NCBI GenBank assembly: GCA_014905825.1 | Contig: JACGCN010000062.1 | Coordinates: 1-64,000 of the forward strand | Direction of reading: 5' to 3' | Length of the DNA: 64,000 nt | Source of the DNA: Lyophyllum atratum | Taxonomy: Eukaryota > Basidiomycota > Agaricomycetes > Agaricales > Lyophyllaceae | Shown: positions 24,690-55,100 of the stretch, piece after piece | How the letters are laid out: every line of letters begins with the position of its first letter | How positions within the stretch are numbered: position 1 is the first letter of the stretch | Notes under the pieces: generated by a model | What the model was told of the DNA's origin: nothing | The model's database searches: none | The model's input: only the letters and a program-made list of their open reading frames with translations | Translations under genes and position numbers: made by a program

Positions 24690-27520
24690 GAGTGTAAATG
24701 CCGACAGTGTCTCGATACTACGCCGTAATACGCGTCGGTACGAACTTATCGTGAAATTTCATCGAGGTCTTGGTGCCGAGTTCGTGACAGCAGTGTACTG
24801 ATGAATTCCCTAGCCCCATGATTGGACGGATCGAGCAGTGGTCGAATCGATAACACTGCAAGCACGTCCTAGGCTCAAGTATCTTGCTCAATGCTCATCT
24901 AGGCGACATCGTTGCGAAACCGTCGAGGCTGTCGACTCGAGGGTGGAACGCCCACGTGTGATGATTACGTCAGTCCAAAATGTGGCAGGTCGCGTGCGCC
25001 GGCCTGCGCCGTCACAGTGTCGCCACGCTCACGATGATCTAGTTGGGTAACGACCGACTCGTTTGATATTTTAACATATTTAGACGAGGGCCGATGACCG
25101 ATACGAGGCCTATATCACACCCCAGTGGTCTTCCACAACACCAATATCTACGAAAGTAAGATGGCTTGACGAACCCAGGGCCGGTCGGACCCTTACACAC
25201 TTTTGCTCGGAGTCCGTCCACGCGATTCTGGCCCAGTTCTGGCCACCAGACACCATTCGAAACGGGAGCCGGTTTCTGCCACCTGTGTCATCTCCAGGAA
25301 AACATTTCGACGGCCTCTTAACACCCCATTTGCCCGTCCAGAAATTCAACTGCCAGCTCACCTGTGACCTATCAAACAAGTTTTTACTAGCGGAGACGCA
25401 TCCACGGAGCTGCAGGCTGTAGATTATCGGGGTGCCATGGCGTATCCTGAGTCGCTGACAGGTCGATGCACACGCGCGTATCCTGTCTATGAGTCAGATA
25501 CTGGGCGCTTATACTTCATGAAGGATTCTTGGAGGGCTGAGGAGCATGGAAAGGAATCTGCTATCCTTCGGACGCTTCAGAAGGCAGGCGTACAGCATAT
25601 CTCTGGATTGGTCTGCGGCGATGACATTCCCCACCAAACTACTGTCACAAATCTTCACGTTCCTCTTCGGGACAGAGGCACAGCTCAGCTCGAGGCTTGC
25701 TCTACTGGTCTATTTTGTTCACAACAGGCCGACCCCGTCACTGAGTTCGGGGATCCGAGCGCAGTACTCTCGAGGCCTAAAAATGCGTCCTGGATATGCG
25801 GTAACGACAGGAGACGAATCACCGGACGATATCATCATCGTATGATTACAGACGTCATTGGATCTCATCTTAAGAACTTCACGTCGTCGAAGCAGATGAT
25901 GGAAGCCATCTCTCAAGCGTTCACTGGTAGTTCCATTCGTCCTTCTTGTTGCCCGTATTGACTCTTTCTCTAGCGCATCAGCAAGCCTATGAACTGTGCA
26001 AAATTATACATCGAGATATTAGCGCCTACAACATCCTCATCACAGAAAACGGCCAGGGAATTCTTAGTGATTGGGATCTTGCGAACTACGAAAAGGATAT
26101 AGCAGCAAATTCGCCCAGACGGCAGGCGCGCACCGTCAATCCCATTCTTCTATGTCAATGGCAACCTACTGATCAATGTCTATTGCAGGGTACTTGGCAA
26201 TTCATGTCATGCCTCCTCCTGATGGATAGGCACAAGCCGCACACCATTCAGGACGACATCGAGTCCTTTGTCCACCTCATCCTATACCACAGCATTCGTT
26301 ATCTTCGGCACACCAAATCTCACACTGTCAGGGCCCTCCTCTCCAAAATCTTCGACGATGTATATCAGGAAGATGATGGCTCCCAGGTGGGAGGCATAAG
26401 CAAAAAATCCCTGTTCAGGGACAAAGAAAAATTCAAGCCCTTCAAGAACTTCCAACTCATGAACAATGCCCCTTTGAACGCGTGGATTTATGATGCTCTT
26501 TACACCGTGGACGAATGGATAAAAGAAGTCGACTCGGACGGTGTCAAAATGGAGGACTCGGAGCTAGCGAATCTGCGGCTCTATGACCATCAATACATGG
26601 CTGAGCAGTTCGCCAGCTGCCTGCAGCAACAGGGTTGGCCATCTGGCGACAAAGCCGTCGACTATTTGCCTGCAGTTGCTCATGGCAGCACTTCCAGCCA
26701 AAGCGGGAGCACGGGCATTAGCAGGGGGAGTGGCTCTAAGCGCAGCCTTAGCATAGAGGATAATGAGGGATATGAGGGTCCCGGATCGAAGGCGAAGAAG
26801 CAGAAAGCTGGTGGGTCGGAGGGCAGGCACTCTAGCCGCTAGCTATATCATGAAAAATTGAAGTGGACTTTAGGCCGCTTCTTTATGACCTACTTATGTT
26901 CTCAATGTACAATGTACCGCGGTATTTTCCAGATTTCTGACCTTCAGAGCGAGAGCAAAAGCAGATGTGATTATGAATAGGATCATAGCCAGTGGTCTTT
27001 CCTTGAACGGATTTCGCGGCGTGAATTTAGAGATGGTGATATTCTTGAGAATATGTTTACGACCTCGCCTCTTGTAATTCACCTCTATGGAAGGGAAAAT
27101 TTCTAATCGGTGGCAAAGAGGACCCACGATCGAAATAGTCTATTAGAAATCAAGGCAGAGGTCACAACCTTTTCTGATATGGTACGTCTCGCCAGCCACC
27201 ACATTTTGCGAGAGTTCCACACCATGGTCCTGAAGCGTTTTCAGTTTGTGCCACTGCTCCTCATCCAGCATCCTGTCCACCAATGCCCATCTTAGGCAAG
27301 CGAGTCGGTTGCCCGGAAGTGGTCGCATGACACGAGATTCCAGCATCTCGACCGTGGCCAACTCATTGCCTTCAGCATTGCGCGTACAACTTTGCATCCG
27401 AATTCTCCACAGAGATCGGCATACCAAACCCATGCGATCGGATCGTCGATAATTCATTGCATTGGGGACACTGACGTCAACAGGGCATTGTTTGGGACCT
27501 TCGACGTCAAGCTCGATAAG
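24690..27520. repeat. Segmental duplication, unit 1 (FunK1 copy A + F-box gene)
   Basis: Resembles 28610-31940 in the same order: a CAGTGTCTCGAT block, a GATCGAG-AGTGGT block, the FunK1 promoter (GGAAAACATT-CGACGGC), kinase exons, the 3' flank (CTTGAACGGATTT-GCG...TTGAGAATATG), and a piece of the F-box gene (GACGTCAACAGGGCATTGTT). The two units are tandem direct copies that have since diverged by indels. 24307-24690 shows no supported gene. Confidence 0.75.
25341..26842 (+). pseudogene. FunK1-type protein kinase, copy A, internally deleted
   Basis: FunK1 kinases are a basidiomycete-expanded family of unusual protein kinases of unknown targets. Compared with copies B and C, the promoter and first codons (about TSGDASTELQAVDY) are joined in frame directly to RGAMAYPESLTGRC, so about 240 residues of the N-terminal domain are lost. 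The first few codons also carry an indel and stop. The rest reads AYPVYESDTGRLYFMKDSWR, HISGLVCGDD, then after an intron HQQAYELCKIIHRDISAYNI (HRD catalytic loop) and DWDLANYEKD (DFG equivalent). The intron before GTWQFMSCLLLMDRHKP is shared by all copies, and WPSGDKAVDYLP and a basic tail ending HSSR follow. A protein could start at the ATG at 25437 but would be a truncated kinase. Confidence 0.75.
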
Positions 27521-28609: not shown

Positions 28610-31600
28610 GTAGGTGGCCTTGTAGCAGTGTCTCGATGCTGCGGGTAATCTGATTAAAGTCTCGAGCGTTGGGGTCGTGGCAGGGTGCTGGTGACTTCCG
28701 AGACCCATTGTTTGACGAATCGAGTAGTGGTAGCTATAGGTAGCATCGATAACATCAACACGGCCTGTTGCACGAGTTGTTCACGTTGAAATTACGTAAG
28801 GTTGTTTGTTGAACAAAGTCACGGTGGCAAGAAAGTACGCGTCGCGCTCATCATCCCAACCAGGAAGACTGGGAAGATTGACGACACGACTTACTGGGCA
28901 TTTCTAGGGTCTGAGGCCAAAAATCGCTACGAGACTTGTAACGCAGCCCAGTGGACTTGCTTTTCGACGACATTTACAAAAATAGTGCGGCTTGGCGGAC
29001 TGGTGGACCCTGACACTCCTTTGCTCTTTCTGCGCGGTTCTGGCCACAATCGATCCGAGATCCGTTCTTCCGCCACCTGAGCCATCGTCGGGAAAACATT
29101 CTGACGGCTTCGCAACATCCCATTGTTCCTCAAGCTTATAAAGTAGGTCGATTGGCCTTCTGAAGGTGTTATTCCTGACAGCCCACCATGTCTAAGCTAT
29201 CCAAAAATTCGACTTCCAGTTCTCCTGTCAAACAAGCTGTCACTAGTGGCTACGAATCCGCGCAGCTGGACGCCGAAAAATATCGCAACCACCTAGCTAA
29301 AAGCATGACTGGCTTTTTCGTGGGCCCTATGCCCGTGGAACAATTTCTTGAAGACTTCTTGCCACCACCGAATGACCCGCGTCCTGTACTTCCTACGACT
29401 TTCTTCGACGACATGGGCGAGAAATTCAGGTTAGAATCTGACATGTGTAAAGCATTTGTGAGTCGACGGCAACTCGTATCCCTAAGTCGTCTCACCGTTC
29501 GGACAAACAGGAGGAATATGTCCCCAGTAACCTCATTCCAGGTTTCAAGATTGTAAACACTTCGAACCACAGGGATCGTGACTCTGAGACAAAGCTCAGG
29601 CCAGATCCTACCCTATACCGAGCGGATCTAAATACAGATGACAAGAAAACACAGTATAGCGAGATCGAACTTCACTTTGAGCTCAAAGCGAATACTCTCT
29701 ACGATCCTTTCGAAGATCCAAAGGAGGGCGCCGACATATTGAAGCATAACTTCGAGTCCACGAAGATAAAACGAACCGATTGTCGGGGGCAGCTCCTCAG
29801 CTACGCCACTGAATGGTTCTCTCGCCAGCATCGCTGCTTTGGTTTTACCGTTTTCATGGGCGATCCTTATATACGCTTTATTCGATGGGATCGTGCCGGC
29901 GCCATTGTATCGGCCAAGTTCAACTATCGGGAGGACTCCAGACCGCTCATGGAGTTTCTTTGGCGCTTCTGCCATCTTACACGCGCTCAGCGTGGCTGGG
30001 ATCCGACAGTGCGCCTCGCGCATCCAGAGGAGGTCAATTTGGCCCACGAGAAGCTCTCGCAGTGGAAGCACGATCTTTACCGGGATGTCGTGGTTTTCTC
30101 TATGCCAGTTGGCGACACCAAGCGCGAGTTTATAGCGTGGGGTGCCATGGCGTATCCGGAGTCGTTGACGGGTAGATGCACACGCGCATATCCCGTGTTC
30201 GAGGAGAAAACTGGGCTCTTAGGTTTCTTGAAGGATTCCTGGAGGGCTGAGGACCTCGAGAAAGAGTCTGCTATCCTCCGAACACTTCAAGAAGCACGCG
30301 TAGAACACATTCCTGGATTTGTTTGTGGCGATGACCTTCCCGACCAAACTACTGTCACCGATATTTACGTTCCTCGTCGAGCCAGCGGCACAGCTCCCTC
30401 GGAGGCTTCCTCTACTAGTTCAGATGGTTCCTCGAGTGGCTCAGATGTTTCAGAGGAGGACGTGCCCCTCACTGAGGTCAGGGAGTCCAGCGCAGTACTG
30501 CCAAGGCCTGAAAGTGCGTCCTGGATATGCGGTAACGACTAGAGGCGAATTACACGACGATATCATCATCGCATGATCACGAACGTCATCGGTCATCATC
30601 TCAAGAAGTTCACGTCGTCGAAGCAAATGATGCAAGTCGTCTCTCACGCGTTCACTGGTAGGTCTACTCGTCCGACTTGCAGTTCCCCGTATTGACTGTT
30701 CCTCCAGCGCATCAGCAAGCCTACGAGCGGTGCGAAGTTATACATCGAGACATCAGCGCCTACAACATCCTCATAAAAAACAATGGCGAAGGAATCCTCA
30801 ATGATTGGGATCTTGCGAAATATAAGAAGGATATAGTGGCGAATCGGCCCAGACGGCATGAACGCACCGTCAGTCCCATTCTTCTGTATCGATGGCCACC
30901 TACTGATCGATGCCTATTACAGGGCACCTGGCAATTCATGTCATGTTTACTCTTAATGAATAGGCACAAGCCGCATACCATTCAGGACGACATCGAGTCC
31001 TTTGTCCACCTCATCCTATACCACAGCATTCGTTATCTTCGGCACACCAAATCTCGCGAGGTCGGGACAATCCTCTCCCGAATCTTCGATGATGTATACC
31101 ACAAGCCTGATGGCTCCCAGGTGGGAGGCATGAATAAAAAATACCTGTTCAAGGACAAAGGAGAATTCCTCCCCTTCGAAGGCTTCCGACTTCGCAATAA
31201 TGTCCCTTTGAACACGTGGATCTATGATGCTCTTCACGCTGTGGACGAATGGATAACAAAAGTCGGCCAGAAGGGTGTCATAACGAATTTGGAGGCGCTA
31301 AAGGGTCTGCGGCTCTATGACCATCATTACATGGCTAATCAGTTTGCCAACTGCTTGCAGCAACAGGGTTGGCCATCTGGCGACAAGGCGGTCGACTATT
31401 TGCCTGCAGTTGCTCACGGCAGCACTTCCAGCCAAACCGGGAGCACGGGCAGTAGCAGGGGGAGTGGCTCCAAGCGCGGCCTTACCACAGAGGATGACGA
31501 GGAATATGTGGATTCCAGATCGAAGGCGAAGAAGCAGAAGGGTAGTGTGTCGAACAGCGGCCGTGTTCTCCGGAGTAGCAGGAGAGGTGGCAGTGCCGCC

Positions 31601-39343: not shown

Positions 39344-40481
39344 TCTGCTTTATCGCCTTTTGTACTATGTACGTACACCCTTGCTTACCCATTTGACGCG
39401 CCATGATACACCCTTTGTGACTTCATTACCGCCCTCCATATATATCCCCATACGCTTGTTTTACCATTCCCCTCAACTCCTAGGAAGTTTACCCGAAACC
39501 CACTCAAACTCAAACACGACCTCGTGCGTTTTATCTAAACAGCCACGTACGCCAATCTTTCTACAAATCCAGCCAGGCTCGAGGCGTGGCTGGGAGGAGA
39601 CGCTGATCGACCTTGTCTATGTATGCCTATGTAGGTCGCCTAGGCTCTGTACACGCATACACTGCTTCGCTTTACATAAACTGCTGTAATTCATGACCTG
39701 TACAGTACATCCGCGTAGGCCGCGTAGCCACGACCTATGCGGCCTACAGCACTACGCGAAAAGTTCCTACAGGGACTACAGGGGAGATTTGTACCTGATC
39801 AAAGCTGTACGCAACGGGACAACCGGATGGCCTCGATAATTGGTTTTCGACTGGCACTCCAGCTGATATTTTGTAGGGCAGTCCGAGGACCGAGATGCAG
39901 CTAAGAAAGTCTTTGAATTGTATGATGAAATACTATGTACTGATAATGTAGAGTAATTACGAGGTAGTACGAGGTGGGGAAAGTAAAGGGGTAGAACAAA
40001 TAATGATGTGCTTTTTAGTGGTCAGTGGCCAGGAGCTGAGGCCCTACTCGTCGTTCTCAATCTCTGGCTGAGAAAAGAGGTACCCTTCCTCAGCACTTTG
40101 CTCACAATCACCAGCATACTCCCTGCTCAACACGATCAGAAGAGGTCACGGCGATGTGAAGCTTGAAGGCTCTTGAGGTGATCCATGTAAATGGGCTGAA
40201 AGGTTTTCGTTGCGACCTTGCGAACTTTATAACGTTCAGTGGCTCCCATTTCCAGGTGTATGTAATCACTCTGATCTGCATCGAGGTATATCAAATTGTG
40301 ACTTGTTTCTACGCGCCTACGGCTCTATACAGAGTACGCGACTACCCGGTTATACATAGGCCAACGTAGCCAGCGATAACTATGTAAGTCTACGTAAAAG
40401 TAGCCTCAGTATGGAACTAGAATGCTTTTCCAGATGCGTGCTTAATAAGTCCCTCGCAATTGTTTCCTGCTGACCGCTTCA
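39344..40481. other. Intergenic region left of the KDZ transposon
   Basis: No supported gene. Contains an imperfect hairpin at about 39714-39746 (GTAGGCCGCGTAG against CTATGCGGCCTAC, 12 of 13 pairs) and other short GTAGGC/CTAGG motifs. It ends at the GGTATGAT target duplication. Confidence 0.4.
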
Positions 40482-40489
40482 GGTATGAT
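40482..40489. repeat. Left 8-bp target-site duplication of the KDZ transposon
   Basis: GGTATGAT, identical to 51105-51112. The ancestral empty site would read CTTCA-GGTATGAT-ACAATCC. Confidence 0.9.
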
Positions 40490-40814
40490 CACCTGATAAT
40501 ACCACGTAAGCCCTCTTATTAGAGGTGTATTTACTATGTAGTGCGCCTTCATGTTAGAGGTTTTCAAAGCTTTTAGGGCCTGTTCCACTATACCTTGAAT
40601 ACCTCTGAGGACTTGTAAATACTGCTCGTCGTAGTCATCGGTACATACGGCACCCATTGCCGGTTGTTTGGCATCGTCGTGTATGGCCCTCGTTGGCATC
40701 ATTGTGGCCACATCATCCCGGACATCGCCGGCGCATCATTCCATCACATTCCCACCAGCTCCCGCTCATCAAACGTCGGCGTCCCGCTCGTCGCACGGCG
40801 GCTTCCCGCCCCAC
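40490..40814 (+). repeat. KDZ left terminal inverted repeat (325 bp)
   Basis: Reverse complement of 50780-51104. No difference was found when compared by eye over the full 325 bp. Weaker similarity continues to about 40858 (TCATTTCTTACTCAAA, TAATAAA). An open frame running outward through the repeat is present in both copies because they are identical. It is not treated as a gene. Confidence 0.88.
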
Positions 40815-40927
40815 ACTCATTTCTTACTCAAAATTCGTGTAATAAATCCCAATAAATTATATATAAATACCTCTACGTTACTGGCTACATAAAATGATAC
40901 AATGAGTGGCGATGATGGCGGGGTGTG

Positions 40928-43900
40928 CTACTGGGAGACGATGCAAAGGACGTTGAATGCGAGCTCAGCGAGCTGCGCATCGTCGTCGTCATCTCCCTCC
41001 CCGCCCTCAGCAGCCTCCGCCCCGCCGGCCCTCCCGCTACCCCCGCTGTCGTCGTCGCCATCATCACCGCCGGCGTTGTCGTCGCCCTCCCTGTGGTCGT
41101 CCGGTAGAGCGTTGCCTGGCTCGAAAGCCGTGGCGTGTATGCTGACGCCAGGGGAGATGCTCCCAGTGAACCCAGAAAGCTGTGCCAGCTTGCGAAACCG
41201 GCGCATATGAGCTTCGTCGTACCTGCCTCGCTCCATGCGATAGATGGCGATTTGGTGTGCGAGGCCGGGGTTTGTCCGTGCAACCTCCTCCTCTCTCCGC
41301 CTCAGGTACAGGGCCTCGTCCCTGATGTAGGTGATGACCCGCGGTATCTCGACGTCAAGCCGCTGGATCTCTTCGCGTGCGCGCTCCGTTTTGAAGTATC
41401 GGTCCATAGCGAGGCGGCTGGCCGGCCGTGACCACGGACGATCGCGGATGTCCTGGCGCGAGTCCCGGAGGAGGTCGAAGTCCGCAAGGAAAGCGTATTC
41501 GACAACGCTTTCCCAAGTGAGCTGGGGACGAGGAGGGGTGACGGTGAAGGCGGCCTCGTTGTACTTGTCCAACGCGGTGCGGATGGCCTGTGACCGAGAC
41601 GACAGCGCTTGCGCTATGTGCTTCCGCAGTTTGTACCCTGGAGAACGTCAGCGGGGTAAGGAAGGAGGAAGCATGGATACTCACCGGTCTGCGACATGTT
41701 CATCTTGGTGAGCTCGAACATGCGAGAGACGATCAGCATCTCCAGCTGGTCGAGACACCTCTGGTACCGCCTCTTCCCCACCAAGTCCGCCGCCCTAGCC
41801 CATTCTACACACTCCGGCGTCCAAGCCACCGCAATCGACAGCTTCACCTCCAGGGCCTGGACAGTTGCGACGTCCCTCTCATAGTTGTCAACTGCGTGTC
41901 GGCGCTTTGTCTCAATGGACTGCGTGAGGTCGGGGCGAGCGCGGACGCCCGGAGTGGTGGCCAGGCTCCCCGGTGTGATGACGTTCCACTCTTGCTGCGC
42001 GGCATCGAGCTTGATCCTTGTCAGAAAAGGTCAGCGGCGACCAAACGACGAGGTGAGCAGGGCTACTCACTTGCTTGCCCTGACGTTGACCAGCTTCTGG
42101 TAGTACTCCATTTCCAGCGTCTCCTCGAGCGGTTCCTTCGAAAGCGCCTTCAAGTACGTCCTCTCCTCCTCGAGCCATTGAGGAAAGATGGCGGGGTCGG
42201 GGATATCTTGATCGTGCATGGTTTTCTTGAGCGCTGGTATGCCTTTGAGGATGTCGAGCGCCTGCTTATAGTTGTTCACTAGAAATTCACCTGAAACACA
42301 TCAGCTGGTAGCTAGATAAAATCAGACGGAGCACGTACTTAGGCTAGGGTAGGTGTCGAACGTGTCCGTATGCTTGATGAATTCCACGATCTTCTGCTGG
42401 CGATGAAAGACGCTGGCGTATCGAAGGGAGGATGCGAGGGCGTTCGACTTGGAGAAGAACCTCTCGCAGCCTTCCAGATCCTCCAGCCCCATGCCTTTGA
42501 CGTAGGTGGCGAGGAAGTTGAGCTGGCAGAGGCGGTTGTGGGCATGGCCGTGGAAGGCCCCGATGAGGCACGTGCAGTTGAGCTCCTGCGCGCGGCGGCC
42601 GAGAGGGCTGTTCTTGAGCGTGATTTTCAGCTTGCAGCCGATGTCGTAGCCTATGCCGATGCCGTCTCCGAAGGCGTCCAGCAAGACTTCAAGGACGGCC
42701 AGGGGGTACTTCGAGCTGAAGACCTCAGGTGAGCTAGATTTGAAGAAGAAAGAAAACAGACTTACAGCTCGCCACTCCGAACCATGTCTGCGAGCACCAG
42801 GACGAACCCGTGCCGACAGAGAGCCAGGAAAATACCTGTCTCGTCAAATATTCCCCACATCCTCGCAGTGATCGCGTCGGACATGTTGCTCCATCGAGGA
42901 GAGCAGGGGCTCTCTTCCTCGTCAGGGTCGTCGGCAGGAAGAAGGCCTTGGACGATTTCCTTCGCCCATCTATCAACGCGCTCCCGTGTCACGATGTAGT
43001 CGCCATCGGCCTTCCTGAAGTCGGGGAGCTCCTTCGAAGCCGCGACTGCTGGGGTATCGGTCTCTGGCTCCTCGCCCGTCGGCTCAGGTGGCGCCTCACG
43101 GAGCAGGACTCTCTTGAGCGAGTCGTTACCGTCGAAAGTGGCGAGGATCTTGAACAGGAGCGCGGCTTCCCCGACTAAGGTGTACGTACAAGCCGGGCAT
43201 GAATTCCGCACGCGCCAGAGGGGCTCGTCGCGTCCAAGCTCGGCAAGAACGCTTTGTCGAGTTCGGTTTCGAAGGTCGAGATACAAGTCGTATGTAATCG
43301 AAAACTGCTGGCTGAGGTAGGGGCGGAAGGGCACGCCATGGAGGTCGCACAGGCCTTTGACGAAGGGCTGGATGGCCAAGTGTGGGCAGCGAAGATGTTG
43401 GTGTCGATAGAGCTCGAGGACGCGGCTGGTGAAGGCGAGGTGTGGCGCGAAAGGAGAGCAGGGCATAAGACCCTGCCTGATCAGGGCGGCAGCTACGCCG
43501 CGATCGCCCTTGGCAAGCTCTGCGTCTACAGAGTAGGTACCTGAGGCAAAGGTTAGAGGGGCCCGTCAAATTATAAGGGGGTACGTACTCCAGCCATCCA
43601 CGACCTGAATCTTCCTGCTTCCTTCCACAACGTCGCTCGCCAGGGGGACGTAGTTCATATCCAAGCCCTTGTCCTTCAAAGAGAAGTCCCATGCCAAGTA
43701 AGCAGCCAGCATGTCGGGCATCTGCTGCTCAAAGCCTTCCGTTCGACGCAGTATGCGGTCCCTGCGGGTCCTGGGGTCGACGCGTCTAGGGTGGATTTTA
43801 TTAGTTGCGCTCGGGGTAGCTATGGGCGAAAACACGACATACCTTGTCTTCTGAGCGATCTTGTTGAAGAATTGCTCGAATTCTCCGCCGGCGTTGCTGA

Positions 43901-44246
43901 TGGCAAACGGAAGAGCGCCGTCGAGGAAGTCGTTGACGTCGACGCCGTCCTCGACGCCTGTCATAGGTTGTTCTTCGTAGAACGGTACGGCGCGGAGAGT
44001 CTCAAAGGCGACGCGCTCATCCACATCCATGGCTATGAGCAACAGAGTCATTGACAAGGCGCAAAAAAGACAGCTAGTAAACGTACCACGCACTCTATCC
44101 TGGTGCTCTCTCGCTCCATGGCTTCTATGCTCCCGGATGCCCTTGCTGTTGAGGAGGCTGCTGGTACTGATTCGACCGCTCGCGGTTTTATGGGAGCTGC
44201 GCACACGGATTTTGGAAGACGACGCAGAGGATCTGGTAAGCGTCAT
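40928..44246 (-). CDS. KDZ-superfamily transposase
   Basis: A cut-and-paste transposase with an RNase H-like DDE core. It starts MTLTRSSASSSKIRVRSSHK at 44246, and intron 1 leads to AMDVDERVAFETLRAVPFYE. Landmarks in order: RNSCPACTYTLVGE (Cys pair, probable zinc site), RMWGIFDETGIFLALCRHGF (first catalytic Asp block), SGELSKYPLAVL, GIGYDIGCKLKITLKNSPLG (second Asp block), IGAFHGHAHNRLCQLNF, GLEDLEGCERFFSKSNALAS (probable third acidic residue), then a long helical region with SRPASRLAMDRYFKTERARE. An acidic, Gly-rich tail (DDHREGDDNAGGDDGDDDSG) precedes the end LAFNVLCIVSQ. About nine exons, introns 50-60 nt, no stops found. A canonical CxC2 N-terminal zinc region was not recognised. Confidence 0.88.
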
Positions 44247-44506
44247 TGTTGAAGTTTAACTTCAACTTGTGATACACAACGTCACGTGTTCACGTACATG
44301 TTGAACTTCAACTTGAACCATCTCTGGCCTGGGCGTCGTCAGACCTCTCTTCCACGGTAAGCCTTCTCTCTACTTGAATCTTGTGTGCAGATCGTGAGGC
44401 TCCTTCGGAATCTACCCTGGGGCTGAGGAGCCAAGCGAGACGCATACTTGGTTCAAAAATTTCAAGACCTGATACATGTTTGCTGACTTTCTCATGTCTA
44501 GATTCT
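44247..44506. promoter_or_regulatory. Shared divergent promoter of KDZ transposase and TET/JBP with paired palindromes
   Basis: Contains GTTGAAGTTTAACTTCAAC at 44248-44266 (9-bp arms around one T), directly next to the transposase ATG. GTTGAACTTCAAC at 44300-44312 has 6-bp arms around one C. CACGTG lies between them at 44283-44288. AACTTCAACTTG is common to both palindromes. A likely 5' intron of the TET gene ends TGCTGACTTTCTCATGTCTAG just before 44501. Confidence 0.5.
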
Positions 44507-46055
44507 ATGGATGGTATGGTTGGGCTCCGAGAGGTAAGACATCCCTGCTTCTGGGAGCAAGGACTTACAATGAGCCTCTAGACACGCTCTGGCAAGGCCT
44601 TCTCACCATACGGCAGCTATTTCCCGTTGCTGTGCCCTCCGACCTTCGAACTCGGCCCCCTCCTCCAGCAATCCATCCTTGAGCAAGGCGACGAACTGGA
44701 GGACCACGACGGCCTACTCATGGAGGTGGACGACATTCCGACTGCCGACGCCACGCCCTCTGAGCCAGAGGACGAACGACCTGCAAAAGTGCCCAGACTA
44801 GACCCCACTCCTGCTGCTCCTTCGTACGTCCCTAGGCCGCCGCCTCCGCACCTCTCTCCGTCTCACAAGCGACGCTGGCGCAAACGCGAAGCCAAGTTCG
44901 GCGTCGAAGGGCACCAACCCCGCCCCAATATCGTCGAGCAAAGGGTCAAAGGCGCTGAACCCATACGCACAGAGCTCCGCACCGAGAAGCTCCCCGCTGC
45001 CAACGGGGCGTACGTAGCAAAGAACGGAAACCCGGATGGGGCGAAGAAGGTGCAGCAGGTCGAGGAACTTCTCGCACGCGGTTTTGACTCGGTCCCCTGG
45101 GAAGGAATGTGAGTAGCCTCTTCTCTGGCCTCTTATCTTGGTTGACCCCGTGCAGAGACTCCAGCCCTCTCTTGGACCGCGAAAACCGGGTTTTCTCGGT
45201 TCTTGTGGGAAGACCGGACGACGAGTCATACGCCGCCGCTGCCACCCAGGCCTACGACGCCCTCTCCAGGTTTGCCCAAGACGCAAACTTCACGGCAGCT
45301 GAGAGAAAGCACCGTCGCGGAGCCTTCCCTGCCGTCAACGTGGGTGTCCATCATGGGAAAGGCACCCCTCAACCTATGTGGGTCACGGACGACGCGCGGT
45401 CCGAGGGCGTGGATGCGCTGCTCAACGACCCAGCCATTCAACGACTGGCAGCCTTTGGAAGCTGTGAGTCCCTCCACCTCGCCCTCACCTCTTACTGAGC
45501 CCTTTCCCCCCCTTAGCTTCCTTTCGTATGTGGTGCCCGGGTGTGTTCGACTACTACCAGACGCGCCTCAACGCCCTTTGGAAGCGGATGCCCTTCCTTC
45601 GGCGGGCGTTTGATAAAAGTATATTTCCATGCAGTACGTTTAATTTCGGCCCGAACGTGTGGACGTACAAGCACCGGGACCCTCTCAACTGTCCCTTCGG
45701 CTGGTGTGCCGTCTACGCACTGGGCAACTTCGACCCGAAACGGGGAGGACACATCATCCTCTGGGAGGTGAAGAAGGTGATTGAATTTCCCCCGGGGTCT
45801 CTTATTCTCCTCCCTTCCGCCACCATCACCCACTCCAACATTCCTGTCGCACCCGGCGACTCCCGCGCATCCTTCACGCAGTATTGCGCTGGCGGCATCT
45901 TTCGATACGTGGACTACGGCTTCAGGACGGCGAAGGCGTTAGCTGACGAGGATCCCGAGGAGTACAGTAGAATGGAGAGTCTGAAGGACGGCAAGTGGAA
46001 GGCAGGCCTGGAACTCTTTAGTACATTAGATGAGCTGCAGCAGAAACCTGAGTAG
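44507..46055 (+). CDS. TET/JBP-family 2OG-Fe(II) DNA dioxygenase, transposon-borne
   Basis: TET/JBP enzymes oxidise 5-methylcytosine or thymine in DNA. The catalytic core lies in the last exon: YKHRDPLNCPFGWCAVYALG (HxD metal ligands), GGHIILWEVKKVIEFPPGSL, LPSATITHSN (distal His) and SRASFTQYCAGGIFRYVDYG (2OG-binding Arg). All expected catalytic residues are present. Upstream exons encode an acidic EQGDELEDHDGLLMEVDD stretch, HKRRWRKREAKFGVEGH (basic), PPLNCP-independent NRVFSVLVGRPDD, and NVGVHHGKGTPQPMWVTDDA. Introns follow VPWEG, AAFGS and LRE, all in frame. The start at 44507 is the first in-frame ATG after a likely 5' intron, so the N-terminus is uncertain. Divergent from the KDZ transposase. 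Confidence 0.87.
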
Positions 46056-47024
46056 ATACCCGTAATACAATTCTTAGAAGCCACGCAGAGAAGAAAGAAA
46101 GCAAGACCCACGACGCACATAGTCATGTCTTGTCAAACCATGGAAAGTCTAAGATATGGCCATTGCCTGATGGAAGGTACACATTACATTAGAGAAGCTT
46201 CAGTAGATACTAGTAATACAGTCATTTGAATTAACACAGAGAAGAAAGGAAGAGAGACGTTAGAACTACGAAGTACATAGGGTGATATGTAGTCAAACTT
46301 GAGCATAATCAACAACAATCATACATGCCACAAGGCCATACCCTGACGAAAACCAGGCTATAAAATGGCCACATTGCTCGATGTTTAAAATTTCAGGTGG
46401 ATGCTCAAGGTATATACCCTACCTACCTACTGCCCACCCTCACAGAGCTATAGCTTGCCTCAAATCATATACAAATCAGTGATCTCTGTTTCACCCGCCA
46501 AAATGTGTCAATTTCAACCTCTCAGATCCCCTCCGACCTCTTTGGTATATCTTCCCTACAGCTAATCTACTATATTCGTGAGGTGTTCCCGTTGATACGA
46601 TTTTTGCCCAGCTATAAAGGAGCCTGGCAGCCTGAAAACAATATACTTCCCAATTTTATTTTGAACTCAGGTGACGCCGCGCCGAAATTCTGTCTTCGCA
46701 GCCATCTTCTATGCACGTCGCCGAGCAACATGTTTTTTCAGGAGGGTCACTTTCGGGGTAGGAACGGCAGGATAAAGATGTGCGAGATTTATGATTTTCA
46801 GGTGCAGTACAATAGGGTGGGGGTGTAGGAATGACAAATGGATGCCAACTCTCGAAGCTCTCTATATATTAATGACTTTCGCGGCTGTCGAGAGGTTCCT
46901 GTGGTCCACGGTTGTGCTACGCGGGAGTCATCGAGTTTCGACGCTTTCGACGCGATGAGACGCGATGACATGTGGTGGGATCCAGTAGTCATTATGTTCT
47001 ATGCAACTACACCTACCTACAAGG
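46056..47024. other. KDZ internal non-coding region
   Basis: No supported gene. It holds two diverged direct copies of a block (about 46053-46140 and 46202-46310) sharing AGATAC-AGTAATACA-TC, ACGCAGAGAAGAAAG, GACG-ACATAG and GTCAAAC, consistent with a local duplication. Confidence 0.45.
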
Positions 47025-47290
47025 ATACATGGTGCAGTGGTTAGTGCTCACACCGTGAGTGTACCATGACACCCGGGGGCCGTTGGTTCGACTCTTGGCT
47101 TCAACATTTCTTTTTGTCATGAGACCTAACATTTTCATGGCATTTTCCAAGGTGTTTGCCCACCAATTTTCTGGCATTTCCTAAGGTGTTTGCCCACCGA
47201 TTTTCTGATATTTTCTAAGGTGCTTACCCACCGATTTTCGGCCATTTTCCAAGTTTTTTGCTCACCAATTTTCTTGCGTTTTGACTTAAC
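47025..47290 (+). mobile_element. Putative tRNA-derived SINE-like insertion inside the KDZ element
   Basis: Box A-like TGGTGCAGTGGTTAGTGCTC and box B-like GGTTCGACTC are about 55 bp apart, as in a polymerase III promoter. The arms do not fold into a proper cloverleaf, so this is not a working tRNA. It is followed by a body of about four degenerate 34-40-bp tandem repeats and no clear poly(A). Ends and target duplication were not identified. Confidence 0.35.
47139..47285. repeat. Degenerate tandem repeat, about 34-40-bp period, four copies
   Basis: Units follow GGCATTTTCCAAGGTGTTTG then CCCACCAATTTTCT, with small substitutions (CCTAAGG, GCTTACCC, CGATTTTCGG). It lies directly after the tRNA-like head at 47025. 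Confidence 0.7.
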
Positions 47291-47442
47291 GCGCGGGGGC
47301 TTGGATGGCACGGCGATGTGATATATTACGTGTAACTACAACGGTACCTAGCTACGGCGGTCAGAGGGCAAGGAGGAGGGGCGGGCGCGGTGGAAAGGCA
47401 GGTGTCGCGAGGTCAGTAGTGGTAAATAAATAAAAACGTCCT

Positions 47443-48693
47443 TCAACGCATGGGGGCCCCTTTCACGATGAGCTCGTGCATAGACAGGTACACGAAGAGC
47501 CGGTTGCCCTGCTCTTCGCTGCCCGTCTTGTACAACGCGCGCATCTGTGCACGGCCTAAGCCTCCTACGGCAGCCTTCCTGAGAGGACGTGGGCGTTAGT
47601 TCGGAAAGGGAGGAAAGACACGAAGCTTACCTGCCAAGGTATACGCCTGGCCGGACTCCCGCGTAGACGACGAAGTACGTCTCTGCGTCGCTGAGAGGCT
47701 TCGGCTCAAGGTATTGCGCCAGCGAGTGCCTGGCGTGCGGTCGCGGCGGGCGTGGCGGAGGAGGGAGTGAAGGGGGATGCACCTCGCGTTGATCTCGGGA
47801 TGAGGCTGTAGGCGGGCACGGCGGTGATGGCGCGCGCTGAGGGGGAGAGGATGGAGGTTGGGGCGATGACGGAGGCGAGGAAGGCGTCGGGGGCATACGC
47901 GTCGCTGCCTGGGGACGTGGCAAGGGAGGCGGTCGCGATGACGCACGGCGATGCGACGGAGGAGGTGTGCAGGAGATCGGAGGCGGGCGTGGCTTCACTT
48001 CGGTCAGGCGTGGCAGAACGGGTTCCTCGGTTCGTACCGGACCAACGGTGCCGTTAGCCCTGGCGTGCTCCCAGGCATCAAAGGCTTCCTGGACCGTCCG
48101 GTAGCCCTTGTGTCGCTGTCCAGGAAAATGCCACACCTGCATCTCGGCGGCGGCCCTATGCCGTCAGCGTGGCTTGCAACGTAGCTGAAAGAGCTCACCA
48201 TGTTTCAAACACTCCCGTCTTCCTCCCATGGAAGACGACGTACGCGACCTTGTCCCTCCTCGAACGCTTCTGAGGCGCTGAGCACGGAGGTGCGTGGAGA
48301 GCGACCAGATCTGCGTCCTCGAACACGTCGTCGAGATTCAGACCGTCGATGCTCAGGTCCTCCGCCGTCAGCTCAGCCGTGAACAGCTTGCCTACCTGTG
48401 GAGAGGACGGAGGAGTGGCCCAGGGCAAAATGGGGGAGGGAGTCGGCGATTCAGTGACCGAGGAGAGCCAGGAAGACACATGCGAGGAGAGGAGGGACCC
48501 GTGCGACGACGCCCGCTCTGCTGCAAGGCGGTTAGCTGCTACTGTGCGGGAAAGGGGGCGGAAATGGAATGCACGTACCGTGGTCGAGCACGAGGGTTGA
48601 GGAGGAGGGAGCTGTGGTGCCGTTGGTGAGTGTTGCAGTGGAGAGCTGTGGAGAGCTATAGTATGACTTACTGTGGGGCTTGCGATCGACCAT
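47443..48693 (-). CDS. KDZ cargo protein with RNase H1 N-terminal (viroplasmin-type) domain
   Basis: Starts MVDRKPHTPSSSTLVLDH at 48693 after correcting two short introns. A Ser/Pro-rich N-terminus carries EDLSIDGLNLDDVFEDADLV. The recognisable domain is KVAYVVFHGRKTGVFETW, spliced (GTGAGC...GCATAG) to AAAEMQVWHFPGQRHKGYRT and VQEAFDAWEHA. This is the GRKxGIYxxW...QVxxFPGxxxKxFxTxxEA pattern of the RNase H1 N-terminal fold, which binds RNA/DNA hybrids or dsRNA. After a long Pro/Arg-rich linker, a second weaker copy reads YFVVYAGVRPGVYLGR, then KAAVGGLGRAQMRALYKTGS. It ends GAPMR at 47443. No RNase H catalytic domain is present. It may bind nucleic-acid intermediates of the element; that role is inference. 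Confidence 0.7.
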
Positions 48694-48917
48694 GGGGGCG
48701 AGGAGAGAGAGGGAACAAAGAGGTGGGAAGAAAGAATGGGGGAAACAAAGAGTTGAACACGCACGCGTTTTGTTGCCATCAACCCTCACGGTTGGTTCCT
48801 CGCTGCACGTGTACTCGACGCTTGGACCCTCTGACGCTTGGACCCTCTCCAGCGTGCCTTGTTCCAGGATCATGAATCTGATGGTTGACCCCACGTGCTT
48901 GTTGACTTCTGACACAG

Positions 48918-50511
48918 ATGTCTTCGCGGTCTCCTACCCCTACTGCGCACGACGGCGAGAGTCTTAGCTTCGCTCAACGAAACCCCCTAAAGGACGCGCA
49001 ATCAGCGCAGAAGCGCGCGAAGAAGTCCTTCACACAAGCCGAGAAAATCACCCGCGCCGCCAGAACGGCCACCACGAAGGCGCGGACTCTGGCTTTCAAC
49101 GAGGACGTTGCTGCATTCCACGCCCTGCGCGAGGAGACTGTCGAAGAACTCGCCAAGAAGCACTCATTCAAGCCGGCCTACGTGCGCAAGGCGCTCACAC
49201 ACGCCAGCAGTTTTAAAGCAACACGCGAGCCCTCCCTTCAAAATGCGCTGGTCCACCACAAGATGCTGGAAGTCAACCAGGGTAAGAGCTCTCCCTCTCA
49301 GGTCCGTTACCCCCTCACGAACCTCACCAGATCGCGTCCCCGGCAACATGGCGAAGCTCAAGGAGATTCAACAACTAGTCGCGGCCGACCAGACGCTACA
49401 GAACGTCTCCAGCGAGCGGGAAGAGCAGCTGAAGGAAGCGCTCCGCGAGAGCCGCCTTCTGAAGAGTCGCGGCTCCCGCCCCTCAAACAAATCAGCGGCC
49501 ATGGATGCAAAAGCGGTGCTTGCAGGCATCGTCACAGAGGTACGCATGCCCCCTAGCTCACTGAACCTGGCTGACAGCTCGCAGCTCGAGAACCTTCACG
49601 AACGCACCGGGGCCACCAGCTTCGTCTTCGTCACGCGTGGCCACGTTCAAGACACCTTCATGCCCGGCTTTGCCGACACGGGCGACGCCCACCGCTTCTT
49701 TCACGACGTGCTGCAGATGGCGCCAGTAGACCTAGCCACGAAATTCGAGCTATGGTCTTGTTCGAAGGCCCGCGGTACGTGACTTACTCCGCTCCCCGCT
49801 GTTTCTTTTTGACGCCGCCCTTTGTTCATCAGCGGGCGCCGTGGTCGACAGCTTCCAAAGCATGCGTTCCGACGCTACACGACTGATATCGGAGGGGCTC
49901 TGTAAGTCTAATAACCCCTCTCTTTTGCCTGGCTAACTCCGACGGTCCTTCTAGTAAGGCTGCTGGAGCCGAAAAAGGTCACCATGAAGTACATCGACTA
50001 CGACGTCGGCATCGTCTTGAAGCACAAGGTCGCGCTTCTGGGCTGGCCCTCAGGAGTGCCGTTCGTTAACCCCTCGAAGCTGTCCACCGTCGGCGAGGTC
50101 AGCAAGCTACGCAAGGCGCTAACTAGTGGGGAATGCCGGTGGGTTGCACAGAGTAAGAAAGCGCAGGAGGCACATGCGAAGGAGATGAAGGAAAAGGAAG
50201 CGGCGGGCGGGCTGACGAAGACGAGGAAGACTCGGTCAGACAAGGGGAAGAAACGTGCACGGACGACTGGGGGGAAGCGGGCGAGAGGCGACGGGGATGG
50301 GGATGACGAAGAGGAGGAGGAGTTGGACGAGGCGCCCCCGACGAAGAAGAAGAAGAAGAGCGCCTCCCATCGCGCGAAAGAAGCCGCGTCGGCTGCCTCC
50401 CTCAAAGCTGCAAAGGCGAAGCTTCCCCCTGCGTACAAGAGCAAGGAGTTCGTCCGTGACAGCGACGAAGAGGAGGAGGAGGAGGAGGAGGAGGAGCAAA
50501 GCGACGGCTGA
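48918..50511 (+). CDS. KDZ cargo protein: HTH-like N-terminus, coiled coil, acidic C-terminus
   Basis: Starts MSSRSPTPTAHDGESLSF at 48918. Residues about 60-100 (LREETVEELAKKHSFKPAYV then RKALTHAS) look like a helix-turn-helix. A helical segment follows (MAKLKEIQQLVAADQTLQNV, SSEREEQLKEALRESRLLKS), probably coiled. The conserved-looking globular core reads LHERTGATSFVFVTRGHVQD, FFHDVLQMAPVDLATKFELW, then VALLGWPSGVPFVNPSKLST and LRKALTSGECRWV. The C-terminus has basic runs (KGKKRARTTGGKRAR, PPTKKKKKS) and an acidic end DSDEEEEEEEEEEQSDG. Five exons, all in frame. Similar GWPxGVPFxxPS proteins are, as far as I recall, common unnamed genes in agaricomycetes. DNA binding is inferred. Confidence 0.65.
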
Positions 50512-50779
50512 CGGCTCTCGCCGTGCCCGAGCCCTCTCCATCCTCGCCTCCGTGCTCCCCATTCGCCTGCCTATCGTAGCCCGTAGTCTATCCCTTGTCT
50601 CCCAGAGCGCACGCACTCGCGGCGCTTCTTCATCAATATCATATTGTGTTCCCCTTGCAACTGTAGTCCATCTGCTGCCCCCATAAGAACCCCACTGGGC
50701 CAGCGTCATAGAAGCAATTTATTAGGAGGTATTAGCCTTTATTACATGAAATTTGAGTAAGAAATGAGCTGTCTACAAC

Positions 50780-51104
50780 GTGGGGCGGGAAGCCGCCGTG
50801 CGACGAGCGGGACGCCGACGTTTGATGAGCGGGAGCTGGTGGGAATGTGATGGAATGATGCGCCGGCGATGTCCGGGATGATGTGGCCACAATGATGCCA
50901 ACGAGGGCCATACACGACGATGCCAAACAACCGGCAATGGGTGCCGTATGTACCGATGACTACGACGAGCAGTATTTACAAGTCCTCAGAGGTATTCAAG
51001 GTATAGTGGAACAGGCCCTAAAAGCTTTGAAAACCTCTAACATGAAGGCGCACTACATAGTAAATACACCTCTAATAAGAGGGCTTACGTGGTATTATCA
51101 GGTG
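50780..51104 (-). repeat. KDZ right terminal inverted repeat (325 bp)
   Basis: Reverse complement of 40490-40814 without visible difference, ending GGTATTATCAGGTG at 51104. Weaker inverted similarity continues inward to about 50718. Confidence 0.88.
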
Positions 51105-51112
51105 GGTATGAT
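51105..51112. repeat. Right 8-bp target-site duplication of the KDZ transposon
   Basis: GGTATGAT, identical to 40482-40489. Confidence 0.9.
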
Positions 51113-52139
51113 ACAATCCTATCAGTATCTCTGCCGAAAGCGAATTATCTTCTCGATATCTCTTCCGCGTGTCAAGCGGACGCATTTGTATAGCAGAACA
51201 CAGAAGTAGGATGCAGTACGCATATCGGAGATCAGGTGCAGGGTGGTGGCTGTGGCTGTGTTCATCCTCAGGCTCCTCCTTCTCCCACCAGATCGCCTCA
51301 GAGTCACAGGGGACAACCAATCCAATCGACTCCCTCTTGTAGTTCTCTCCTACATTTTTTGCACGCAGCTTTTCGGAAAGCCCGCAGCCGCAGCGGCTTG
51401 GAACTTAGGTCTTAAAAAGAGCTACATATCGCACTGCTCCACCCCCGAACTCTGGACGGCCTTTCGTGTTAGCGTGCCGATTTGTAAACGGCGAACCATA
51501 TCTGTCCACACATCTGGACATGTCTCAGGCCTACGCACCTGGATGAGTAGATTGGGATCGATGCTGCATGCCCACTCGTAGCCGAATGGAATGGTCAAAC
51601 CACTAGTGGTGGCGATGGCATCCTACGCCTATGAATCACGTAGCTCACCGTTTCGCATGGACTCACCCCTGGACGGACGTTGGAACCCATGAGGACTGCT
51701 CTTCTGAACAGCTATTGCACGACACATTCCCCTTATCTTGAGGAGATCATCATGGAACCTGGTCATAGAGATGCTGACGTATCTCTGTCCTCCTTATCGC
51801 ACTCGCACCTCGACTAGGCAAGATCACAATGACTAGCCCCTCCTGTTATCTGCCCGCATTCGACCTTTGGCCTCTCATACATGTTATGTTATTCTGCGCC
51901 TCCGGTCACACACTACTAGTGTACGCAACTTCGAGGTCTACCCAAAGCCACTTGCCATATCGAACTTTCCGAAGCTGATTCACGACTATTCGTTGGCTGT
52001 TCTACACGCTCAATGCCGCCGTTGACCTCGATCTATGCACGCCGGCAAAACTCATCTTCCCGGATCATAGACTTCGTCACGGTCTCGATCCGAGCGGGCT
52101 TATTGATGTTAGGTCATAACGAAGCGGTCTAAAGTCCAC
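51113..52139. other. Interval right of the KDZ element, no clear gene
   Basis: The longest open frame (51243-51581 plus) has no recognisable domain. Fragments near 51640-51990 on the plus strand (ALLNSYCTTHSPYLEEIIME) could be remains of an F-box/LRR gene convergent with FunK1 copy C, as in the 25-28 kb unit, but the match is weak. Confidence 0.3.
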
Positions 52140-55100
52140 TTCCATCTTCCATGCTACTGCGGAGAGAATGGCTGTCCTCCGACCCACCAGCCTTCTGCCT
52201 CTTCGCCTTCGATTCGGAACCATCATATCCCTCGTCATCCTCTGTGGTAAGGCTGCGCTTCGCGCCGCTGCCAAGACTACTCCCTACACTCTTGGAGAGT
52301 GGCTATGAATGCTGTCATGAGCTAGTGCAGGCAAATAGTCCACAGCCTTGTCCCCAGATGGCCAACCCTGTTGCTGCAGGCAGTTCGCAAACTGATCAGC
52401 CATGTGTTGATGGCTATAGAGCCGCAGACCCGATAGCGCCTCCGGATCCGTTATGACGCCCTTCGGGCTGACTTTTCTTATCCATTCGTCCACAGCTTGA
52501 AGAGCATCATAGATCCACGTGTTCAAAGGGACATTATTGGCGAGTTGGAAGCCTTCGAAGGGCGGAAATTCTTCTTTGTCCCTGAACAGGTATTTTTTAT
52601 TTATGCCTCCCACCTGGGAGCCATCATCTTGCTGGTATACATCATCGAAGATTCGGGAGAGGAGTGCCCCGACAGTATGAGATTTGGTGTGCCGAAGATA
52701 ACGAGTGCTGTGGTATAGGATGAGGTGGACAAAGGACTCGATGTCGTCCTGAATGGTATGCGGCTTGTGCCTGGTCATCAAGAGTAAACATGACATGAAT
52801 TGCCAGGTACCCTGCGATAAATATTGATCAGTAGGTTGCCATTGACATAGAAGAATGGGACTGACGGTGCGCTCGTGCCGTCTGGGCGAATTTGCTGCTA
52901 TATCGTTTTCGTATTTCGCAAGATCCCAATCATTAAGAATTCCCTCGCCGTTGTCTTTGATGAGGATGTTGTACACGCTGATGTCTCGATGTATAACACT
53001 GCACCTCTCGTAGGCTTGCTGATGCGCTAGAGCAAGGTCAGTAAGGGCAACAAGAAGGACGTACAGACCAACCAGTGAAAGCGTGAGAGACGACTTTCAT
53101 CATCTGCTTCGACGACGTGAACTTCTTGAGATGATGTCCGATGACGTTTGTGATCATACGATGATGGTATCGTCGGGTGATTCGCCTCCAGTTGTTACCG
53201 CATCTCCAGGATGCGTTTTCACTTCGGAGTTCCACGCTAGGCTCCAGGACCTCAGTGAGGGGACCATCCTCCTCCGAGACATCTGAGCTACTAGAGGAAA
53301 CATCTGAGCTGGTAGAGGGAGCCTCCAAGGGAGCTATGCCTCTATCCCGAGGAGGAACATAAAGATCTGTGACAGTAGTGTGGTGGGGAATGTCATCGCG
53401 ATTCGCTGCAAACCAATTAGTGTTTAAAAGTCCAGTCACCATGACTGAAAATGACTGGACTGTAACTGATCTGTGACTGGTAATGACCGGACTTCCAGTC
53501 CTGTCATCCTGGAATGACTGGTGCACCAGTCCAGTTATTTTCATAATCTGGGATTCTGCGTAACTGGAAATAACTGGTCGCGACCGGTTTGTGACCGGTC
53601 ATTTCTATACATACTATATTCTTGATTATAGCCCCGTTATAGGGCTTTAGAATGACCCTTTCGTCAAATAAATCGGATGAGAACTGAATGTGCTATGGCC
53701 AAAACAATTTCAGAACACTGAGTTTGAGTGCAGACTGTACTAAGCATCTTAATCAGCTCATATCTCAATCAGATCTTATTGGATTCTCACGACCCAAGAT
53801 TCATCCGAAAGGTGGAAGCATACTCTACATTATATGTGACATATATAACCAGTTATCACCGGTTATAACCGGCTCAGGACCAGTTTTCGTAAAACCGGTC
53901 AAAACCGGTCATAGAACTGATTGTGACTGATGGTGACTGGTCGCCATCAGTTCAGTTCGGTTTTTTGGAGTTTTAAGCATCACATGTGACCGGTTACAGT
54001 CCGGTCTTGCCTAATTTGGCAAAAAAACCAGACTTGACCTGACTTTAAATCACTAAAACCAATCCAGGGATGTGTTGTACGCCTGCCTTCTGAAGCGTCC
54101 GAAGGATTGCAGATTCTTTTTCGTGCTCCTCAGTCCTCCAAGAATCCTTCCTAAAACCTAAGCGCCCAGTATATTGTTCGTACACAGGATATGCGCATGT
54201 GCATCTACCTGTCAGCGACTCGGGGTACGCCATGGCACCCCATGCTATAAACTCGCGTTCGGCGTCGCCATTCGAGACTGTGAACACCATCACTTCCGGA
54301 TGGAGATCGTTCTTCCACTTCGCAAGATGATGATTGGCTAGAGTCACCTCGCTCGGCTGCGCGAGGCGTACTGTTGGATCCCATCCGCGACCAGCGCGGT
54401 CCAAATTGGTGAAACGCCAGAGGAAATCAATGAGCGGTTGACAATTCTCGCGGTAGTTGAACTCGGCCGATACGATGGCGCCGGCGCGATCCCATCGAAT
54501 GAAGCGCATAACGGGATCGCCCATGAAAATGGTAAACCCGAAGCAGCGGTGCTGGCGAGAGAACCATTCAGTGGCGTAGTTGAGGAGCTGCTCCCGGCAC
54601 TGGGTTTGATATTCGCTCATGGCCTCGAAAGTATGGCACAATTTGTCAGCACCCTCAGTTGGATCCTGGAAAGGGTCATAGCAGTGGTTCCGTCTAAGTT
54701 CAAAGTGGAGTTCGAGCTCGCAGAGCTGTGTCTCCTTGCTATCTGTATTCAGATCCGCTCGGTATAGGGTAGGATGTGGCCTGAGCTTTCTAGTAGAATC
54801 AAGGTCCTTCAAGTTATTGTTTGAAGTGTTTACAATCTTGAAGCCTGGAATGAGGTTACTGGGGACATATTCCTCCTGTTTGTCTGGACGGTGAGATGAC
54901 ATAGGAATACGAGTTGTTCTTGACTCACAAATGCTTTACACATGTCAGATTCTTTCCCAAATTTCTCGCCCATGTCGTCGAAGAAGGTTGTAGGAAGTAT
55001 AGGATGTGGGATATTTGGTGCTGGCAAGAAGTCTTCAAGAAATTGTTCCACGGGCATAGGGCCTACGAAAAAGCCAGTCATGGTGCCAGACAAGTGGTTG

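Follow-up and report, generated by a model that had tools for sequence, protein, structure and literature searches.

A complete KDZ DNA transposon of Lyophyllum atratum carrying a TET/JBP-like dioxygenase gene and two putative nucleic acid-binding partners

DNA transposons bearing TET genes have been reported in three fungal lineages, including Kyakuja and Zisupton elements in Agaricomycetes, and escape from methylation has already been proposed for them (Kojima, 2025; PMC12730594). According to the same work, two Kyakuja families of Laccaria generate 7-bp duplications and have no inverted repeats, an 8-bp duplication is given for Dileera, Gly331 and Asp337 of CcTET are positions relevant to AG-type TET, and plant Vandal elements encode an anti-silencing protein. 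In Cryptococcus neoformans, KDZ1-KDZ3 (9.2-11 kb, with inverted repeats of 139-241 bp and a KDZ transposase) are experimentally mobile and create duplications of 8 bp in KDZ1 and 4-8 bp in KDZ2/3, so that mobility is documented for elements in this size range that have long repeats and 8-bp duplications (PMC12810828).

The DNA analyzed here, hereafter the window, comprises 64 kb (bases 1-64000) of a 210,204-base contig, C111, in the 64.76-Mb assembly of Lyophyllum atratum. Positions 40490-51104 are occupied by a complete KDZ DNA transposon of 10,615 bp, with the following features:

40482..40489, no strand: target-site duplication, left copy, GGTATGAT (direct comparison; single-copy GATATGAT in the empty allele)
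40490..40814, + strand: left terminal inverted repeat, 325 bp, starting CACCTGATAATACC (repeat comparison)
40490..40569, + strand: probable transposase-binding end, outer 80 bp (conservation across other ends)
40928..44246, - strand: KDZ transposase, 8 exons, 986 aa (spliced model and Pfam KDZ)
44507..46055, + strand: TET/JBP-like 2OG-Fe(II) dioxygenase, 4 exons, 466 aa (spliced model, equal to the public model; modelled fold; residues)
47030..47094, + strand: tRNA-like A box and B box, possible SINE head (box search)
47125..47260, + strand: 34-bp unit in four tandem copies (repeat search)
47443..48693, - strand: hybrid-binding protein, RNase H1 N-terminal domain and Pro-rich linker, 5 exons, 345 aa, 365 aa in the public model (spliced model)
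48918..50511, + strand: GTF2I-like fold protein with an acidic/basic tail, 5 exons, 462 aa (spliced model, equal to the public model; modelled fold)
50780..51104, - strand: right terminal inverted repeat, 325 bp (repeat comparison)
51105..51112, no strand: target-site duplication, right copy, GGTATGAT (direct comparison)

The initial annotation had described identical 325-bp inverted repeats, perfect 8-bp duplications and four open genes, and this description is confirmed. The repeats (40490-40814 and 50780-51104) are 100% complementary over 325 nt and identical on direct comparison, the absence of any difference placing the upper 95% bound on their divergence at 0.9%; GGTATGAT is present at both 40482-40489 and 51105-51112, and each of the four genes yields an open spliced model in which all introns are GT-AG. 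The transposase contains a full-length KDZ domain (PF18758, E=7.4e-74, profile positions 1-217 of 217, above the cut-off), as expected from its earlier assignment, and inverted repeats together with an 8-bp duplication were found in all four elements with these ends that were examined. Cut-and-paste transposition by the KDZ enzyme is well supported by this anatomy. When the left repeat was compared with six other ends, which belong to three elements, two of them near-identical copies, identity was 98-100% at positions 1-40 and 85-98% at positions 41-80, versus 65-68% at positions 161-325. This strong conservation of the outer ~80 bp suggests that they are probably the portion that the transposase requires, and their probable binding by the enzyme is proposed on that basis.

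In size, long inverted repeats, 8-bp duplication and KDZ transposase the element resembles KDZ1-KDZ3 of C. neoformans. However, the transposases of the latter have a CxC1 domain, while that of the window has only a weak CxC1 match below the cut-off (E=0.0053; CxC2, also below, E=0.21), and the available text on KDZ1-KDZ3 does not mention a TET gene such as the one carried here (PMC12810828). The combination of a KDZ transposase and an HxD TET/JBP gene in one transposon, as well as the CA..TG ends, is shared with the TET-bearing Kyakuja and Zisupton elements, although an 8-bp duplication and 325-bp repeats separate the window element from the two Laccaria families by which Kyakuja was judged (7 bp, no inverted repeats; PMC12730594). 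The 8-bp duplication and inverted repeats agree with the Zisupton lineage, and Dileera, with 8 bp, also fits. TET-bearing KDZ transposons and the idea of escape are already published, while the three-gene cassette described below was not found in that report, whose main text contains no mention that we could find of RNase H or of accessory or additional genes (PMC12730594). Among open-licence PMC papers, no report was found of the cassette, or of GTF2I in connection with a basidiomycete.

The same ends delimit three other elements, at C130:635542-638382, C130:639873-642714 and C109:25302-27762, flanked by the perfect 8-bp duplications CCCGGATA, CTTTAGCG and GATTTACA, respectively. Each is 2.5-2.8 kb long and, by tblastn, retains only a transposase remnant, in the form of short weak matches within amino acids 921-986, at the end of the gene, and on this account the three look like internally deleted relatives. 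Further, weaker end-like matches are present on C85, C64 and C75. A search with the whole interior gave no second full-length copy in this assembly; it failed to list the element itself and is thus an incomplete survey. The two 2.8-kb C130 elements (635542-642714) are 99.97% identical and mutually inverted, lie 1,490 bp apart and have their own 8-bp duplication each.

That the element is complete and recently moved, as had been proposed, is supported by the identity of its repeats and by the existence of an empty allele. On contig C97 of the same assembly the flanks are found without the element, the left flank stopping and the right flank starting at one point, with a single target copy. Over the 452 bp that aligned between the 601 bp fetched from C97 and the joined flanks there is one difference, located inside the target site, which reads GATATGAT instead of the GGTATGAT of the occupied site. 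The possibility that C97 represents an excision product was considered, but the flanks also differ outside the target site (98% identity on the right), and because of this the change was taken as a haplotype difference and C97 reads as the other haplotype. Many places with TET matches are likewise paired, with equal scores on different contigs, from which we infer that the assembly seems to contain two haplotypes. With both allelic states, occupied and empty, in one assembly, methylation and expression can be compared against a natural control.

With regard to the transposase, C2:899309-902133 is the closest KDZ relative that the genome searches gave (33-38%, exon by exon). The two pair in a 26-domain KDZ tree (C2:900636, support 0.944), built with the window and 25 of 30 cut KDZ loci after omission of four near-duplicates and the window's own locus. 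This pair forms a clade with a larger group (support 0.999), outside which fall the eight TET-near sequences, i.e. those located 2.0-3.2 kb from a TET match. To judge from the tree, a wide distance separates the window transposase from the eight TET-linked KDZ transposases compared in this genome, a set that does not extend to the KDZ genes at C71, C119 and C72, the remaining divergent TET places. One sequence of the group nearer to that of the window, C1:1698024, has a 36% TET fragment at 7.8 kb and was not labelled TET-linked.

For the dioxygenase, the public model agrees completely with ours (100%, full length). The assignment to TET/JBP is borne out by the modelled structure, which has the TET fold and CcTET of Coprinopsis cinerea as best structural match (PDB 7vpn, 7w5p, 8jkk), and the HxD motif (H340/D342), distal His (H393) and 2OG Arg (R404) previously noted are all in place. 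Sequence similarity to CcTET is nevertheless low, with ~13% identity in the structural alignment, and CcTET was not found by the sequence profile: the protein gave no match to PDB by sequence, and its profile returned chance-level rows only. Pfam searches with the window protein gave 0 families at E<=1, Tet_JBP included; in a set of 33 (A2, drawn from the best 120 of 267 proteins found related to the TET protein), 11 members (window protein included) matched Tet_JBP at E<=0.1, with a best value of 2.3e-6. Counting from HxD, N345 and C351 stand where Gly331 and Asp337 of CcTET are compared, a correspondence by count rather than by alignment to CcTET. Given the modelled fold and the residues retained, the protein is likely to oxidize bases. 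In the TET tree, P0012, which lacks core coverage, distorts the root, and no placement was drawn from it.

A KDZ match within 8 kb accompanies 23 of the 59 main TET places in the genome, the window included (counts derived from 92 matches after dropping second-exon rows, with allelic pairs counted twice, and set against a subset of 109 KDZ matches). In 18 of these 23 places the KDZ gene lies downstream on the same strand; four, among them the window, have the genes in divergent orientation, and one shows another arrangement. For five of the six TET places most similar to the window's own (55-58%), there was no KDZ match up to 15 kb away.

The two remaining genes had been suggested to encode DNA/RNA-binding partners, a suggestion that holds as a prediction, one product scoring above the Pfam cut-off for an RNase H1 N-terminal domain and the other having a GTF2I-like fold by structure. 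In the former, here called hybrid-binding protein, PF01693 scored 44.2 bits against a cut-off of 21 (Cauli_VI, E=2.2e-11). No RNase H catalytic domain was found, the search giving no other Pfam family at E<=1, or at E<=10 for the public model (365 aa versus 345 in ours, 94% agreement), so that the protein does not qualify as an RNase H1 enzyme. Domains of the RNase H1 N-terminal type bind both dsRNA and RNA-DNA hybrids and are also known from other agaricomycete proteins, hence the presence of the domain alone says little. The other protein, whose public model is identical to ours over its full length (100%), has the GTF2I repeat fold in its predicted structure. PF02946 gave 0 for the window piece and 12.5 bits (cut-off 27) in one of three pieces, and being below the cut-off the protein is named GTF2I-like fold rather than filed as a family member. 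Among the ~8,000 best word-sharing candidates scored in each protein search, relatives of the GTF2I-like protein numbered 10, the window's own included, and the hybrid-binding protein found only itself. A scan of viral contigs with the GTF2I-like family gave no relative.

Relatives of the TET, hybrid-binding and GTF2I-like genes could be observed by tblastn at a separate, diverged and partly decayed locus, C130:183843-189664, in the same order and orientation as in the window. The main TET exon is 55% identical to that of the window, the hybrid-binding relative has PF01693 at 53.1 bits (E=3.7e-14), and the GTF2I-like gene, with matches to amino acids 272-444 only, seems frame-shifted; no KDZ match was found near this locus. 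The conserved order and orientation favour a real cassette over a one-off, and the 55% identity implies that the set has been long maintained or was assembled twice. Earlier genome searches with the hybrid-binding protein and PF01693 missed this relative (C130:186.55 kb); the PF01693 search also missed the window's own gene, and a search with the C130 piece found itself only and missed the window gene. Counts from these searches are consequently lower bounds. The equal sizes of the longest contigs (3387; 794475) suggest that the TET plus GTF2I-like pairing also occurs in a metagenome and in Mycena belliarum. The view of the four genes as a module stands in part: relatives of three of them recur in order elsewhere, but the interior search gave no other full-length copy, and the three elements with the same ends have only a transposase remnant.

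The reading that we consider probable is that of an autonomous, structurally complete and recently moved KDZ cut-and-paste transposon in which the TET protein loosens silencing while its partners guide it or shield transcripts. The transposase would bind the conserved outer ~80 bp and insert with an 8-bp stagger, and the TET protein would loosen silencing by oxidizing methylated bases in the element's DNA and probably elsewhere. The GTF2I-like protein may bind DNA and the RNase H1-type domain RNA-DNA hybrids or dsRNA, and together they would either recruit the oxygenase to the element or protect the element's transcripts. That TET could free the element from silencing is plausible and shared with the literature. 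A more specific proposal, in which the GTF2I-like DNA binder and the RNA-DNA-hybrid binder form a complex that steers the oxygenase to DNA or nascent transcripts of the element itself, appears quite unlikely as it stands. If true, it would be a fungal counterpart of plant anti-silencing proteins, acting by base oxidation. Plant Spm TnpA is an element-encoded protein that reverses the silencing of its own element, and to our knowledge neither it nor the Vandal anti-silencing proteins are oxygenases; the likeness drawn here is that of element-encoded proteins acting against the silencing of their own element. In our judgement, a recurrent cassette in which TET is accompanied by a hybrid-binding domain and a GTF2I-like fold offers a concrete, testable answer to how a transposon-borne TET would locate its own element.

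The strong conservation of the outer ends could also reflect partners that serve transposition itself, with the GTF2I-like protein helping to recognize the ends, the hybrid-binding protein acting at nicked or R-looped ends and TET keeping the ends unmethylated for the transposase. Two-protein systems such as Harbinger, MuDR and Spm TnpA offer a precedent, but the C130 cassette has no detectable KDZ gene beside it, and we regard this explanation as somewhat unlikely. It seems unlikely, too, that the hybrid-binding protein suppresses RNA silencing, the element blocking RNAi and methylation separately: the nucleic acids bound by this type of domain would suit such a role, as would the failure to find an RNase H catalytic domain, while the occurrence of the domain in other agaricomycete proteins detracts from it. 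Finally, the apparent rarity of both partner families in the protein searches could mean that these are captured host genes, passengers with no role for the element, and that TET is its sole useful cargo. That relatives of all three genes recur at C130 with unchanged order and orientation, at a locus where the TET exon is so diverged, makes this decidedly unlikely.

The spacer between the TET and hybrid-binding genes contains, besides the 34-bp repeats, the tRNA-like A and B boxes at 47030-47094, which were seen in 0 of 30 random sequences with matching dinucleotide composition. Scans with ARAGORN and Rfam gave no hits anywhere in the element, these boxes included. No second genomic copy of them was found, so they may be a SINE picked up elsewhere. 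Outside the element, C97:2059729-2059815 has ~87 extra bases, with a 4-base overlap, relative to window positions of about 40158-40161, perhaps a small insertion in the other haplotype. A sequence of ~1.3 kb is repeated at 82-85% in inverted orientation (window 52137-53399, 30328-31595 and 25618-26892), and a 183-bp repeat at window 53418-53600 has some thirty further genome matches, at 76-98%, among the matches listed.
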